From contig NZ_VVIP01000043.1 of NCBI RefSeq assembly GCF_009650435.1, forward strand, positions 186,001 to 250,000: a stretch of DNA of 64,000 nucleotides, in the 5' to 3' direction. The position numbers and the translations under genes were made by a program. The notes below the pieces were generated by a model. The model was not told the DNA's origin, did not search any database, and saw nothing but the letters and a program-made list of their open reading frames with translations. Below are positions 32,466 through 55,903 of the stretch, piece by piece; position 1 is the first letter of the stretch; each line of letters starts with the position of its first letter. This DNA comes from Foetidibacter luteolus. GTDB lineage: Bacteria > Bacteroidota > Bacteroidia > Chitinophagales > Chitinophagaceae.

Positions 32466-33581
32466 TTAATTGTTCAGCATCAGGGGCATCACCAGCATCA
32501 GCACATCCTCATCATCGCTTTGTTCTGTTGGTTTTATAATTCCGGCCTTGGTAGGTGTAGATAGTTCAACCTTTACTTCTTCCGTATCTGCGGAGTTAAG
32601 CATTTCAATTAAAAATTTGGCGTTAAAAGCAATCTGCAGGTCTTCGCCATCGTACTGGCAACTCATGCGTTCGTTGCCTTCAAAGCTAAAGTCTACGTCC
32701 TGCGCGGCCAGTTGCAGTTCGCTGCCGCTTATGCTAAGCGCTACCTGGTTGGTGCTTTTATTACTAAACACACTTACACGGCGCAATGCACTCTGAAAGT
32801 CGGATGTATTTACTACCAGCTTATACGGGTTATCTGTTGGTATTACCACTTTGTAATCAGGAAAGCGGGCATCTATTAACCGGCATATTAACTGGGTAGA
32901 TCCATGTTTTACAAAAAGGTGGTTGCTGTTGTAGCTAACCGTAAGCTGGTCTGCATTATCCGGCAATGCGTTCTTTAACAGGTTTAATGGTTTTTTGGGT
33001 ACAATAAAGCTGTCTGTTTTAGGACAGGCAACATCCTTACGTTTATAGCGCACTAACCTGTGGGCATCTGTAGCCACAAATTGGAGAGAATCTTTATTCA
33101 GCTCAAAAAACACACCGGTCATAGCTGGCCTTAAGTCATCACTGCTTACGGCAAACAAAGTTTTATTAATCGCATTTACAAAAGCGCTGCTGGCTATGGT
33201 GAAGTTATTCGTGTCGTCTGAAGAGGGTTCTTTGGGAAAATTATCCGGGTTTTCGCCCATTACTTTATACTTGCCATTGTCGCTGGTTATTTCAATGGCA
33301 AAGTTGCGTTCTATGGTAAAGCTTAAGGGTTGGTCGGGAATGTTTTTGAGAGAGTCCATCAAAATCTTGGCCGGTATGCACACCTTGCCATTTTCCTTAC
33401 TTTCCACATCCATTTCAACCCGCATTACGGTTTCAAGGTCTGTGGCTACAACACTCAGCTTTTTATCCTGTATCTCAAACAAAAAATCTTCCAGTATGGG
33501 CAATACGGTATTGGCATTAATAACGCCATTAATCTGCTGCAAATGTTTTAACAAAGCCGAAGAAGACACAATAAATTTCAT
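32466..33581 (-). CDS. dnaN: DNA polymerase III beta subunit (sliding clamp)
   Basis: 371 residues, the full three-domain length. N-terminal MKFIVSSSALLKHLQQINGVI, domain junction ASSAFVNAINKTLFAVSSDDLRPAMTGVFFEL, VATDAHRLVRYKRK, and C-terminal VLMLVMPLMLNN with the partner-binding pocket region. The clamp encircles DNA and gives DNA polymerase III its processivity; clients bind it through short peptides. It is not next to dnaA here, which is usual in Bacteroidota. A promoter box and a terminator bracket the gene. Confidence 0.97.
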   Translation of the reverse strand: MKFIVSSSALLKHLQQINGVINANTVLPILEDFLFEIQDKKLSVVATDLETVMRVEMDVESKENGKVCIPAKILMDSLKNIPDQPLSFTIERNFAIEITSDNGKYKVMGENPDNFPKEPSSDDTNNFTIASSAFVNAINKTLFAVSSDDLRPAMTGVFFELNKDSLQFVATDAHRLVRYKRKDVACPKTDSFIVPKKPLNLLKNALPDNADQLTVSYNSNHLFVKHGSTQLICRLIDARFPDYKVVIPTDNPYKLVVNTSDFQSALRRVSVFSNKSTNQVALSISGSELQLAAQDVDFSFEGNERMSCQYDGEDLQIAFNAKFLIEMLNSADTEEVKVELSTPTKAGIIKPTEQSDDEDVLMLVMPLMLNN

Positions 33582-43443: not shown

Positions 43444-45561
43444 CTAATAAAATTCAGAACGGTAATCTTTCACCACAGCGGCTTCTCTAACAGCCTGAAG
43501 CGCCCGGTAGCCAATCATATTGCGCAGGTTGCTTTCCATAGATGTTCTTACGGTTTGAGCGTTACCGTCTAAGGAAGCTCTTGCACCTATGGTTTCCCCT
43601 TTAATTGCAAATACACCACTTGTGCCTGCAATGGGTTGGCTTACTTTACCCTGTAAAGATTTATTAAAGGCGGCGCCTGCCATTTTAGGCTCGTTGCCAA
43701 CAGCGGAAATATAAGGAGACTGAAAAGAAATGCTGTCAGCACGCTGTACCGTAGTTTTTGTGCTTTGTGCCAGCGCTTCCAGCGTATTGCCTTTCATGGT
43801 GGTATTTATAATTTGCTGTGCCTTCTTTTCATTGCGAAGGATGTTTTCCACTACCGGCCTGGCACTGGCAGCATTTTGAAGACCCGGTTCGTTAACGTTG
43901 GTTATAATGGCAACAACATATTTACTGTTAATCTTTACCGGTTCAGAAACCGTACCTACTTTGTTCTCATAAATCCATTTTACAAAAGTGCGGTTATCGC
44001 CAAGGGTGCCAATGGAAAAATCATTTTCTTTAATTCCATCGGCAGGCAGCATAGGTTTGTTTTGTTTTGCCGAAGCTTCCTGGAACTTTTTGTAATCCCT
44101 TGCAGCAGCGGCAAACTGGTTTGCGGCGTTGTTTGCGGTAACATCTGTTTCAGCACTAACAGAGATGGGTTTTGAAACATACGCTATTTTATAAGCTGGC
44201 TCTATTTTACGCTGGGCCAGTACTTCTATGTAGTGATAACCCGCATATTGTGCGTTGGCAACTTTTACCGTTTTTTTCTCTCCTACGTTGCCATAAAAAA
44301 TTGTTTCCGCAAATTCTTTGCTGATGCCTGAAAACTGTGCCGCGGTAAAGTCATACTCACCTTTGGTAGCCTTGCTGCCCGGGTCGTCGCTGTATTTCTG
44401 CACCATTGAATCAAAGCTTACGCCATTGCGTATGGCGGTTACAATGCTGTCAATCCTTTTTTTGGCTATACTGTCAGCCAACACCGGTTGCTGCCTGTCT
44501 TCTGTTTTTATTAATATATGGCGGCATTTAACGGAGTCCGGCATCATGCGGCTGCCTACCATTTTAGCGATGGTATAGTTGCTGTTATCCAGGTAAGGGC
44601 CAAAAACCTGTCCGTTGGCCAGCCTGGTAATGCTGTCTGCATTGGGTACCTGTAAAGTAGACCTAGTTACATAACCATCAAAGAAAGGGGTTGTGCTTGC
44701 TTTTGATGAAACAAACGCCTTATCATCCGCAGCAGCGGCAAAATCCGCTTTTATGCCTTGCAACTGGTTAAACACAGCGGCGCTGTCCTGTGCGCTTGGG
44801 TTGGCATCAAAAGAAACATAAGATATAGACCTTGTTTCTTCCTCCTGCTTAAACTGGTTGCTGTGTTTGCTGATGTAAGATTTAATGTCATCATCACTTA
44901 CTTTAATAGCGCTGTCGCTAATGGAATTGTAAGGAACAAATACATAAGATATATTGGCAATAGCGTTATTATCAGCGTTCATTTTTTCAGACATCCATTT
45001 GGGAATGTACACAGCACCGGTAACCAGCAACTGGTATTTCTTCTGTAATGCCTGGTCAACTGTTGGTTGCAGGTAAGCCTGCGTAATAGCTATAGCCTGG
45101 GCGTCATTAGGTTTCTTTTTCATTTGGGCAAACTGCTGCCTGGCCTGTTCTTTATTAAACTGGCCCGTGTTAGGGTCAGTAAAACCCTGCACCAGCCATT
45201 GCGGTGGGTTATCACCAAACAAAATGTCGCCTAATTCTTTTGATGAAACCTGCAGGCCCAGTTTGTTGTACTCCTGGTTCATGGCTTCCTCGTTTACTAC
45301 CACATTCCAAACACCAGCCACCAGTTCTTCCTGGCGCATGCTGGCAGCCTGCTGGTTGGTTTGCTGTATCAGCGCAAGTTTTTTATCAAAATCATCTTTT
45401 TTAATAGGCGTACCGTTAACTTTTCCCAGGGTAGAAGTGTTGGTAAAAAGGCTCCCTTTACGGTACAAACCGTCCTGTAGGATAAAAGCAATCAAGGCAA
45501 GGGCGATAATACCGAAGATAATCCACGCACCTTTATCACGAATTCGTTGAATAACTGACAT
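43444..45561 (-). CDS. SurA/PpiD-type periplasmic peptidyl-prolyl isomerase
   Basis: 705 residues. One N-terminal membrane anchor (MSVIQRIRDKGAWIIFGIIALALIAFIL), then a SurA_N-type chaperone domain (VNGTPIKKDDFDKKLALIQQ, about 45-200), and a parvulin-type rotamase domain (CRHILIKTEDRQQ through GEKKTVKVANAQYAGYHYIEVL, about 345-455) followed by a long C-terminal chaperone region. It probably assists folding of outer-membrane proteins from the inner membrane. Single gene on the minus strand, immediately left of the candidate origin. Confidence 0.88.
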   Translation of the reverse strand: MSVIQRIRDKGAWIIFGIIALALIAFILQDGLYRKGSLFTNTSTLGKVNGTPIKKDDFDKKLALIQQTNQQAASMRQEELVAGVWNVVVNEEAMNQEYNKLGLQVSSKELGDILFGDNPPQWLVQGFTDPNTGQFNKEQARQQFAQMKKKPNDAQAIAITQAYLQPTVDQALQKKYQLLVTGAVYIPKWMSEKMNADNNAIANISYVFVPYNSISDSAIKVSDDDIKSYISKHSNQFKQEEETRSISYVSFDANPSAQDSAAVFNQLQGIKADFAAAADDKAFVSSKASTTPFFDGYVTRSTLQVPNADSITRLANGQVFGPYLDNSNYTIAKMVGSRMMPDSVKCRHILIKTEDRQQPVLADSIAKKRIDSIVTAIRNGVSFDSMVQKYSDDPGSKATKGEYDFTAAQFSGISKEFAETIFYGNVGEKKTVKVANAQYAGYHYIEVLAQRKIEPAYKIAYVSKPISVSAETDVTANNAANQFAAAARDYKKFQEASAKQNKPMLPADGIKENDFSIGTLGDNRTFVKWIYENKVGTVSEPVKINSKYVVAIITNVNEPGLQNAASARPVVENILRNEKKAQQIINTTMKGNTLEALAQSTKTTVQRADSISFQSPYISAVGNEPKMAGAAFNKSLQGKVSQPIAGTSGVFAIKGETIGARASLDGNAQTVRTSMESNLRNMIGYRALQAVREAAVVKDYRSEFY

Positions 45562-45599
45562 ATTAGTTAATATGGTTTAAAATAAAAGGATGGCAAAAA

Positions 45600-46176
45600 T
45601 AGGGTATTAAAACATTTGAACAAATTGTGGATAACGCATGTAATATTTGACGGCAGTGGGTTACAGCACACGGTTAGCCATAAAAAGCCCGGCCTGCTGT
45701 TTTTTTGTGGAACATCAATTAACAGGCGGCTGTTAATAAGCGGTTTTAACGGTTAATAAACCGCGGGTTTTATAATCCACGCCGGGGAAATTATGCTGAT
45801 AAAAAGGCCGCTTTCTTCAAGTTTGGCGGAAGGGCTAAGGTTTACCACTTTTTACCCTGCCTTAGTTAACAGTTAAAATGTTGTGGACAGCAGGCTGGGT
45901 ATAAACCCCCTCCCTGTTATACACAACTGTTAAAAAAGGCCGGCTTTTTGTATTTCACGTACGTTTCACGGTGTGGGTAAAATGGGGATAGGTGTGAATA
46001 GCCACCCACTCATTAACTTTGCGCATTGGGGATAAGTAAGTTATCCCGATATCCACAGCCGTAATAGTAGTAGCTGGATATATAAATATGTATTATTAAA
46101 TACTAATACAGTTGATATTCACAATTATAAAAAGGTTGTTTATAAAACGCTTCTCAAAAAAAATTAAACGATAACC
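45600..46176. other. Candidate replication origin (DnaA boxes, palindrome, AT-rich flank)
   Basis: A gene-free gap between divergent genes. DnaA-box-like 9-mers: TGTGGATAA (45626-45634, perfect on the minus strand), TTATACACA (45917-45925, fits TTATnCACA), TGTGGGTAA (45972-45980, one mismatch) and ATATCCACA (46049-46057, one mismatch); weaker ones include TGTGGACAG at 45882. GGGATAA-N5-TTATCCC (46029-46047) is a perfect palindrome. The last box is followed by GCCG and TAATAGTAGTAG, which resembles a DnaA-trio run (polarity not confirmed), then an AT-rich stretch to 46170. dnaN and mnmG are 12 and 8 kb away. Confidence 0.5.
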
Positions 46177-47193
46177 ATGAGCACAACAACAGTGGAAAAA
46201 GCGAGGATGGAAGTTAACCGCCGCGGTTTCCTGGATATTGATATAGACCCGGAGCTGGATTTGTTTCACGAAATAGAAAGGCTGAAGAAGGAAAAGAATG
46301 CTGTGCTGCTGGCGCACTATTACCAGGAGCCGGATATACAGGATGTGGCCGACTATATTGGCGACAGCCTGGGCTTGGCACAACAGGCGGCTAAAACACA
46401 GGCTGACATTATCGTTTTTGCCGGCGTGCATTTTATGGCAGAGACCGCCAAAATTTTAAACCCCAACAAAAAAGTACTGCTGCCAGATCTTAAGGCAGGC
46501 TGCTCCCTTGCAGACAGTGCCCCGGCTCCCCTCTTTAAACAGTTTAAGGCCAAATACCCCGACCATATTGTTATCAGCTATATTAACTGCAGTGCCGAAA
46601 TAAAAGCGCTTAGCGATATTATCTGCACCTCTTCCAATGCGGAAAAGATTATTGAAAGTGTTCCACCGGAGCAACCTATTATTTTTGCGCCCGATAAAAA
46701 CCTGGGCGCCTACCTGAGCAAGAAAACAGGACGTGATATGGTATTGTGGAATGGCGCCTGCATGGTACACGAGATATTTAGCCTTGAAAAAATTACCAAA
46801 CTTAAAATAAGGCACCCGCAGGCTAAGTTTATTGCCCATCCCGAATGCGAGGATGCTGTATTGCAAATAGCCGATTATATAGGCAGCACCACGCAGCTTT
46901 TAAAGTATGCTGTTAACAACGAAGCGCAGGAGTTTATTGTGGCTACCGAAACGGGCATACTGCACCAGATGCAGAAAGATGCACCGCATAAAACATTCAT
47001 TCCCGCCCCACCCAATAATAGCTGTGCCTGTAATGATTGTCCGCACATGAAGCTGAACACCTTGGAAAAGCTGTATCTGTGCATGGAGTACGAAACCCCT
47101 GAGATAACCATGCCGGAAGAACTGCGGCTGGCGGCTTTAAAGCCTATGCAAAGAATGATGGAGATTAGTAAGGCAGCCGGGTTAATAGGGTAG
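46177..47193 (+). CDS. nadA: Quinolinate synthase A
   Basis: 338 residues. NadA condenses iminoaspartate with dihydroxyacetone phosphate to quinolinate, the precursor of NAD. Motifs: [98 protein letters not shown], and [12 protein letters not shown] near the C-terminus. The three cluster cysteines can be assigned to [24 protein letters not shown] and CNDCP. No nadB or nadC adjacent. Confidence 0.96.
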
Positions 47194-54034: not shown

Positions 54035-55903
54035 TTACCGTCCCATATAAACCATTAGTATTTGTACATCACTTGGGTTAACGCCGCTTATCCTGCTTGC
54101 CTGGCCAAGTGTTCTTGGTTTAATGCGTTTAAATTTTTGCAAGGCTTCATTGCTTAGGGCGGCAATACCATCATAATTAAAACTGTCAGGAATTACCAGG
54201 TTTTCCATTTGCGCCATTCGTTCAACCAGTTCCTGCTCTTTTTCTATGTAGCGTTCATATTTTACCTGTATTTCTGTTTGCTCCAGGTCGTCATTACTGT
54301 ACTGCTGTAAGACAGAATTTAATGAAGCAACAGATGCGGACAAATCTTTGAGGTTAAGGTTAGGGCGCAGCAAAATCTTGGCAGCCTTTTGTTTCTCGGA
54401 AATGGCTGAAGAGCCGATACTTTCAAGGAATGGGTTTACTTCGGCCGGCTCCAGGAACAGGCTATTCAATTTCTGCCTGATTATTTCTACGTTTTTCCTT
54501 TTGTCAATTACCTGCTGCATCCTTTGCTGGCTGGCCAATCCAAGACGGAAGCTTAGCTCAGTAAGCCGCAGGTCTGCATTATCCTGGCGAAGTAGTGTTC
54601 TGTATTCTGCACGGCTGGTAAACATCCGGTAAGGTTCATCCGTACCCTTGCTGATGAGGTCGTCTATCAGTACGCCTATATATGCGTCGTTACGTTTCAG
54701 AACAAAAGGTTCAAGATTCCAGGCTTTTTGGTGAGCGTTAATGCCCGCCATCAAACCCTGGCAGGCAGCTTCTTCGTAACCGGTAGTTCCATTTATCTGC
54801 CCGGCAAAAAACAGGTTGCCCAGCAACTTAGTTTCCAGGGAATATGTAAGCTGTGTTGGTGGAAAGTAATCATATTCAATAGCGTAGCCCGGTCTGAACA
54901 TCCTGGCATTCTCAAAACCCGGAATTTTACGAAGTGCTTCGTATTGAGTGTCTTCAGGCAAAGAAGTTGAGAAACCATTTACATATATCTCCACTGTATT
55001 GAATCCCTCCGGTTCCACAAAAATCTGGTGCCTATCCCTTTCGGCAAAGCGGTTTATTTTATCTTCTATGCTGGGGCAATATCTTGGGCCAACGCCTTCA
55101 ATGCGCCCGGTAAACATGGGGCTTCTGTCAAAGCCGGTTTTTAAAATATCGTGTACCTGTTGGTTTGTATAGGTGATAAAACAGCTTCTTTGTTGTGCGG
55201 CGGTAATCTTTGGTACGTCCAGGTAAGAAAAGCCGGTTATTTCCTCATCTCCTTTTTGCTCTTCCATTTTGCTGTAGTCAAGGCTTCTGCCATCAACCCT
55301 TGGGGGAGTACCCGTTTTCAACCGGTCACTTTCAAAGCCCAGCTCAACCAGTTGTTCTGTAATACCAGTGGCCGCAGTTTCCGCAACACGCCCACCACCA
55401 AATCTCTTCTCGCCAATATGTATGATTCCGTTTAAAAAAGTGCCACTGGTAATTACCACAGATTTGCTTTTTATTTCATGCCCCAGTCCCGTAACTACAC
55501 CACAAACGCGGTTGTCTTTAACGATAAGGGATTTAACCATGTCCTGGTAAAAATCAACATTGGGTGTTTGCTCCAACATTTCCCGCCAGGTGGAGGCAAA
55601 GAGCATGCGGTCGTTTTGAGAGCGGGGGCTCCACATAGCCGGTCCCTTACTGCGGTTAAGCATCCTGAACTGTATCATGCTTTTGTCTGATACAATTCCG
55701 CTATAACCACCCATCGCATCTATCTCACGAACAATCTGGCCTTTGGCAATGCCACCCATGGCCGGGTTACAACTCATTTGGCCGATTGTCTGCATATTCA
55801 TGGTAATAAGTAAAACCTTACTGCCCATGTTAGCTGCCGCTGCTGCTGCTTCAGACCCTGCATGGCCTGCACCTGCTACTATTACATCGTATTCCGGAAA
55901 CAT
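54035..55903 (-). CDS. mnmG: tRNA uridine 5-carboxymethylaminomethyl modification enzyme MnmG (GidA)
   Basis: 622 residues, full length. FAD-binding GAGHAGSEAAAAAANMG, CNPAMGGIAKGQIVREIDAMGG, FRMLNRSKGPAMWSPRSQ, SGTFLNGIIHIGE, GTPPRVDGR, FFAGQINGTTGYEEAACQGLMAGINA, and the C-terminal helical domain (RISGVNPSDVQILMVYM). With MnmE it installs the cmnm5 group at U34 of several tRNAs. It is often found near the replication origin in bacteria. It has a promoter box 5 bases before its start codon. Confidence 0.97.
   Translation of the reverse strand: MFPEYDVIVAGAGHAGSEAAAAAANMGSKVLLITMNMQTIGQMSCNPAMGGIAKGQIVREIDAMGGYSGIVSDKSMIQFRMLNRSKGPAMWSPRSQNDRMLFASTWREMLEQTPNVDFYQDMVKSLIVKDNRVCGVVTGLGHEIKSKSVVITSGTFLNGIIHIGEKRFGGGRVAETAATGITEQLVELGFESDRLKTGTPPRVDGRSLDYSKMEEQKGDEEITGFSYLDVPKITAAQQRSCFITYTNQQVHDILKTGFDRSPMFTGRIEGVGPRYCPSIEDKINRFAERDRHQIFVEPEGFNTVEIYVNGFSTSLPEDTQYEALRKIPGFENARMFRPGYAIEYDYFPPTQLTYSLETKLLGNLFFAGQINGTTGYEEAACQGLMAGINAHQKAWNLEPFVLKRNDAYIGVLIDDLISKGTDEPYRMFTSRAEYRTLLRQDNADLRLTELSFRLGLASQQRMQQVIDKRKNVEIIRQKLNSLFLEPAEVNPFLESIGSSAISEKQKAAKILLRPNLNLKDLSASVASLNSVLQQYSNDDLEQTEIQVKYERYIEKEQELVERMAQMENLVIPDSFNYDGIAALSNEALQKFKRIKPRTLGQASRISGVNPSDVQILMVYMGR

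Follow-up and report, generated by a model that had tools for sequence, protein, structure and literature searches.

A very probable chromosomal replication origin with a family-wide core between a foldase gene and nadA in Chitinophagaceae

The DNA analyzed here (hereafter the window) is a stretch of 64 kb, bases 186001-250000 of contig C38 (337 kb) in a 7.28-Mb draft assembly of 95 contigs, whose nearest relatives by comparison of NadA are Chitinophagaceae. Two of its genes, encoding a foldase and quinolinate synthase, are divergently oriented and both point away from the gap between them. A preliminary description of the sequence had proposed this gap as a candidate oriC, and its intergenic status is verified. 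The locus is made up as follows.

32466-33581: dnaN (Pfam)
43444-45561, minus strand: SurA_N/PPIC-type peptidyl-prolyl isomerase (foldase), left neighbour of the gap (Pfam), kept as neighbour in relatives
45562-46176, no strand: proposed oriC, the entire foldase-nadA intergenic region (box cluster, conserved core, skew switch at the homologous site in relatives)
46177-47193, plus strand: nadA, quinolinate synthase, right neighbour (Pfam)
54035-55903, minus strand: mnmG/gidA (Pfam), about 8 kb off the gap

As had been noted, dnaA is absent from the window; the gene sits on contig C91, and no cluster of DnaA boxes was found near it. The flanking dnaN and mnmG had been taken as a hint of an origin. 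Their positions are correct, and mnmG keeps its value in relatives, lying no more than 10 kb from nadA in many Chitinophagaceae and at nearly all Sphingobacteriaceae loci, but dnaN mostly does not: it lies within 10 kb of nadA at just 2 of the 80 nadA loci searched and was rejected as a conserved origin neighbour. In E. coli, oriC sits between gidA/mnmG and mioC. The proposed oriC resembles such gidA-linked origins in lying apart from dnaA with mnmG nearby (8 kb), but differs in its immediate neighbours, the PPIC-type foldase and nadA.

When a DnaA box is defined as a 9-mer with at most one mismatch from TTATCCACA, the gap contains five, spanning 432 bp. These are given below together with weaker sites of two mismatches.

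45626-45634, minus strand: DnaA box, perfect TTATCCACA
45917-45925, plus strand: DnaA box TTATACACA, one mismatch
45972-45980, minus strand: DnaA box TTACCCACA, one mismatch
45983-46001, minus strand: two weak DnaA boxes, CTATCCCCA and CTATTCACA, two mismatches each
46027-46035, minus strand: DnaA box TTATCCCCA, left half of a palindrome (GGGATAA, 46028-46034)
46041-46049, plus strand: box 1 of a tandem pair, TTATCCCGA, two mismatches, right half of the palindrome (TTATCCC, 46041-46047), its column kept in relatives
46049-46057, plus strand: box 2 of the tandem pair, ATATCCACA, kept in relatives

The one perfect and several near-perfect boxes of the preliminary description are thus borne out, and the perfect palindrome GGGATAA/TTATCCC that it listed is present and reads as two divergent boxes, TTATCCCCA on the minus strand and TTATCCCGA on the plus strand. 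It had also proposed counting the boxes against background, and by this measure the cluster is exceptional: first-order shuffles of the gap yield a mean of 0.18 boxes and never reached five in 2000 trials, and the gap is the densest 500-bp cluster of the 337-kb contig (five boxes; the runner-up has three). The window as a whole holds 27 such 9-mers where 16.6 are expected, so single 9-mers carry little meaning and it is their clustering that constitutes the signal. Genome-wide counts of exact TTATCCACA were dropped as evidence (58, against 42 for a reversed control).

The functional core of the gap occupies 46027-46136, where the divergent boxes and the tandem boxes are followed by a GC-rich spacer, four trio-like triplets and then the least stable DNA.

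46030-46093, plus strand: 64-bp conserved core, sole match in the genome (E 5e-12)
46058-46061, plus strand: GC-rich spacer GCCG, whose last base may also be read as opening the first trio
46061-46072, minus strand: DnaA-trio-like repeats, CAT TAT CAT CAT read 3'->5' away from the box (top strand GTA ATA GTA GTA), orientation compared with B. subtilis
46074-46170, no strand: DNA unwinding element, 79% AT, from a stability calculation

The string ATATCCACA-GCCG-TAATAGTAGTAG at 46049-46073 contains the box followed by GCCG and the TAA-TAG-TAG-TAG triplets that had been described from the sequence. By nearest-neighbour energies, the stability minima of the 64-kb window fall right after the trios, at 46077-46136 for a length of 60 bp and at 46078-46177 for 100 bp. 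The AT-rich flank reported earlier is therefore real, and the 79% AT segment holds the least stable 60 bp.

The DnaA boxes of B. subtilis are oriented as the tandem boxes are here. The arrangement here matches the basal unwinding system (BUS), in which a pair of DnaA boxes and a GC-rich spacer of about 4 bp precede three or more NAN triplets (PMC8287927); the strand complementary to the B. subtilis trios, followed outward from the boxes, is CTACTATTACTTCTACTA (PMC10201434). The gap is similar to B. subtilis incC (PMC8287927, PMC10201434) in its tandem boxes, short GC-rich spacer, series of three or more NAN triplets (3'->5' from the box) and AT-rich DNA, but unlike a B. subtilis-type origin it lies away from dnaA and dnaN. 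A BUS box is expected 0-16 bp from at least three NAN triplets read 3'->5', and ATATCCACA lies 3-4 bp from four of them. The BUS score of E. coli has been called weak (PMC8287927), whereas the trio module here is strong.

It is in the triplets themselves that the gap departs from the BUS consensus 3'-GAT-5', which is a tendency, above all of the box-proximal triplet, and not a strict requirement. The strand opposite the trios here is GTAATAGTAGTAG, so the trio strand is 3'-CAT TAT CAT CAT-5'; relative to 3'-GAT-5' the central A and final T are retained, but the first base is a pyrimidine (mostly 3'-CAT/TAT-5') and the box-proximal triplet is CAT. Over 39 cores the first triplet is CAT in 22, GAT in 12 and TAT in 5; the pyrimidine-first state of the later triplets was imposed in this count by the search pattern, and the top-scoring cores outside the pattern selection also read pyrimidine-first by eye.

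How far is this core conserved? The 900 bp upstream of nadA were gathered from 109 loci, and in nearly all of the Chitinophagaceae loci collected the 64-bp core can be read by eye, with tandem boxes, spacer, TAATARTARTAG, a T-rich stretch and then AT-rich DNA in that order. A weight matrix built with the window excluded scores 67 bits at 46030, where the next best position in the window scores -7 and the maximum over 274 random stretches is -7.5. Across 118 family genomes the strict pattern ATCCACANNNNTARTARTAR is matched at 33 sites, 29 of which adjoin nadA, and its reversed control at 4. A sequence-only model (R1) was made from 32 core sequences, the window left out, some of the searched genomes having contributed sequences; it finds the core in 109 of the 118 family genomes, almost always as one strong match, and gives no match in the other nine, five of which have nadA. 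Both gap and core are single-copy in the genome analyzed. Weak R1 matches in other families of the order (E above about 1e-4) were not counted as cores.

The core adjoins nadA, in the same direction, in 97 of the 102 genomes that have both, at 15-146 bp upstream of the nadA match (median 36 bp). No nadA match was obtained in seven genomes with a core; in six of them the core is strong and adjoins the foldase, and that of the seventh (G042, E 0.002) is open to doubt. In five further genomes the core is found away from both nadA and the foldase: its neighbours, named by eye, are an ABC-transporter ATPase gene and a PHB-synthase-like gene in four (G002, G031, G093, and G114), and an ABC-transporter ATPase on one side in G091. 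Since the core is kept where nadA is missing or elsewhere, it tracks neither nadA nor the foldase and is not a control element of nadA. Judging by the loci of the first four (L270, L276, L267, and L274, respectively), the origin appears to have moved within the family. Pedobacter, Mucilaginibacter, and Sphingobacterium have a diverged version of the core in the same place, and the weight matrix found none in Saprospiraceae nadA loci.

Strand skew, which the preliminary description had named as a check, agrees with the locus in two closed relatives, is ambiguous in a third and gives no clear switch on the contig itself. In closed Chitinophaga sp. E66 (CP079103.1), the cumulative four-fold-site skew has its minimum at 5.50-5.66 Mb (40 samples, strand-balanced) and its maximum about half a chromosome away. 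When 5.40-5.83 Mb is read without gaps, the change point comes out at 5,615 kb, with a bootstrap 5-95% interval of about -29 to +32 kb, and nadA starts about 2 kb away, at 5,617,393. The log-likelihood gain is 49.5, whereas 200 block permutations averaged 14.2 and reached at most 44.9; dnaA lies about 780 kb from this switch and the nadA gap. In closed G105, sampled in 20 stretches of which one was N, the nadA gap ranks first of the 19 remaining positions on raw skew, four-fold-site skew and gene direction. In G050, closest by NadA among the closed genomes, minus-to-plus switches occur at two places, the gap and a point about 1.4 Mb off, as expected if a single block had been inverted; on raw skew the gap is ranked 9 of 40.

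Over 10 kb on each side of nadA, raw skew rises at 14 of 15 Chitinophagales loci and 13 of 14 Sphingobacteriaceae loci, a jump to which gene direction can contribute in part. Strand-matched four-fold skew rises at 13 of 14 Sphingobacteriaceae loci and at only 6 of 11 Chitinophagales loci (p 0.18, not significant). No such jump occurs over the same distance at Saprospiraceae nadA loci, and because these also lack the core, nadA itself is not the marker. On the 337-kb contig no clear large-scale switch is found at the gap (the best change point, at 303 kb, is weak), and within 10-30 kb of it the strand-matched skew shows a change of the expected sign.

Taken with the near single-copy, nadA-independent core of the family, the skew of the relatives supports and sharpens the original proposal, and the gap is very probably the chromosomal replication origin. 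By analogy with B. subtilis and with the multi-species work on BUS, DnaA would bind the box array, above all the tandem pair at 46041-46057, and from there nucleate a filament of ATP-DnaA across the GC-rich spacer onto the trio-like repeats at 46061-46072. This filament would stretch the trio strand and open the AT-rich element at 46074-46170, where two helicases could load and forks depart both ways.

A recent move of the origin in this species, for example by rearrangement, would leave the core as a relic or a secondary origin, and the missing large-scale switch on its own contig and the second switch of G050 are what such a move might leave behind. However, large inversions can scramble skew with the origin staying put, the local skew shifts as expected, and the core here scores like the others (67 bits with the matrix, E 5e-12 with the model), is the sole copy and has its boxes, trios and unwinding element all intact, which makes a move very unlikely. 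Could the boxes instead serve DnaA-responsive, or other, promoter control of nadA or the foldase, with no origin present? DnaA also acts as a transcription factor, and the short median distance between core and nadA would suit this role. Yet promoter control is already largely refuted by the six nadA-less genomes, which retain the core by the foldase with a different right neighbour; the five genomes with the core apart from both genes and the skew switch in closed genomes, unexpected for a promoter element, add to this, and such control seems extremely improbable. That the gap serves to titrate or reactivate DnaA (datA- or DARS-like), or is some other DnaA cluster that does not initiate, with oriC elsewhere, is a reading that a box cluster by itself cannot discriminate against and that possible titration-type arrays near the core in Chitinophaga might recall, but we give it hardly any credence, as datA/DARS-like sites need neither trios nor an unwinding element whereas both are here, ordered and conserved, and the skew minimum falls at this site in two closed relatives.

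As an origin, the gap is the same kind of object as the Bacteroidota oriCs of DoriC/Ori-Finder, which are predicted from skew, box clusters and indicator genes (PMC10225481). Origins and BUS are known kinds; what appears to be new is an origin core that is shared across a family, has pyrimidine-first trios and is tied neither to dnaA nor to its own neighbours. None of the papers searched names nadA or this foldase as an origin neighbour, and DoriC predictions may already fall here. Chitinophagaceae and, in diverged form, Sphingobacteriaceae may share one ancestral foldase-nadA origin, uncoupled from dnaA, whose DnaA reads 3'-YAT-5' rather than 3'-GAT-5' trios, a proposal for which the chances seem evenly balanced.

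Looking beside dnaA does not reveal the origins of this group, and some of its species have weak or scrambled skew, which leaves genome numbering, depth-based (peak-to-trough) estimates of replication rate and the design of plasmids and minichromosomes without a reference point. The 64-bp core, present in 109 of 118 genomes, offers an origin marker that is usable in drafts and metagenome bins, and its pyrimidine-first trios allow the strictness of the DnaA-trio code to be tested cleanly in a natural setting.

Two Chitinophaga loci contain further groups of DnaA-box-like 9-mers. In a Chitinophaga sp. MAG (NZ_JAFAIX010000012.1; L012, 12000-12870) about 15 of them form a non-coding array that lies shortly after nadA, at a distance of about 2 kb from the core; they are evenly spaced at 61-63 bp, close to six turns of the helix, and are mostly GTGGATAA or GTGAATAA in one direction. 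The array is possibly one for DnaA titration. The second is in Chitinophaga sp. E66 (L042, 18223-18685), 8 kb from the core, where six 9-mers in about 460 bp, the final four 71-72 bp apart, span coding sequence with a split reading frame, apparently for an anti-sigma-type or membrane protein. This cluster was rejected as an origin, being protein-coding and absent from the other Chitinophaga loci examined. Elsewhere in the same record, at 108782-109266 (L084, L085), the DnaA ATPase domain is divided between two frames and carries a stop, and foldase and mnmG are likewise matched only in part, which suggests that the E66 record (CP079103.1) contains sequencing errors.
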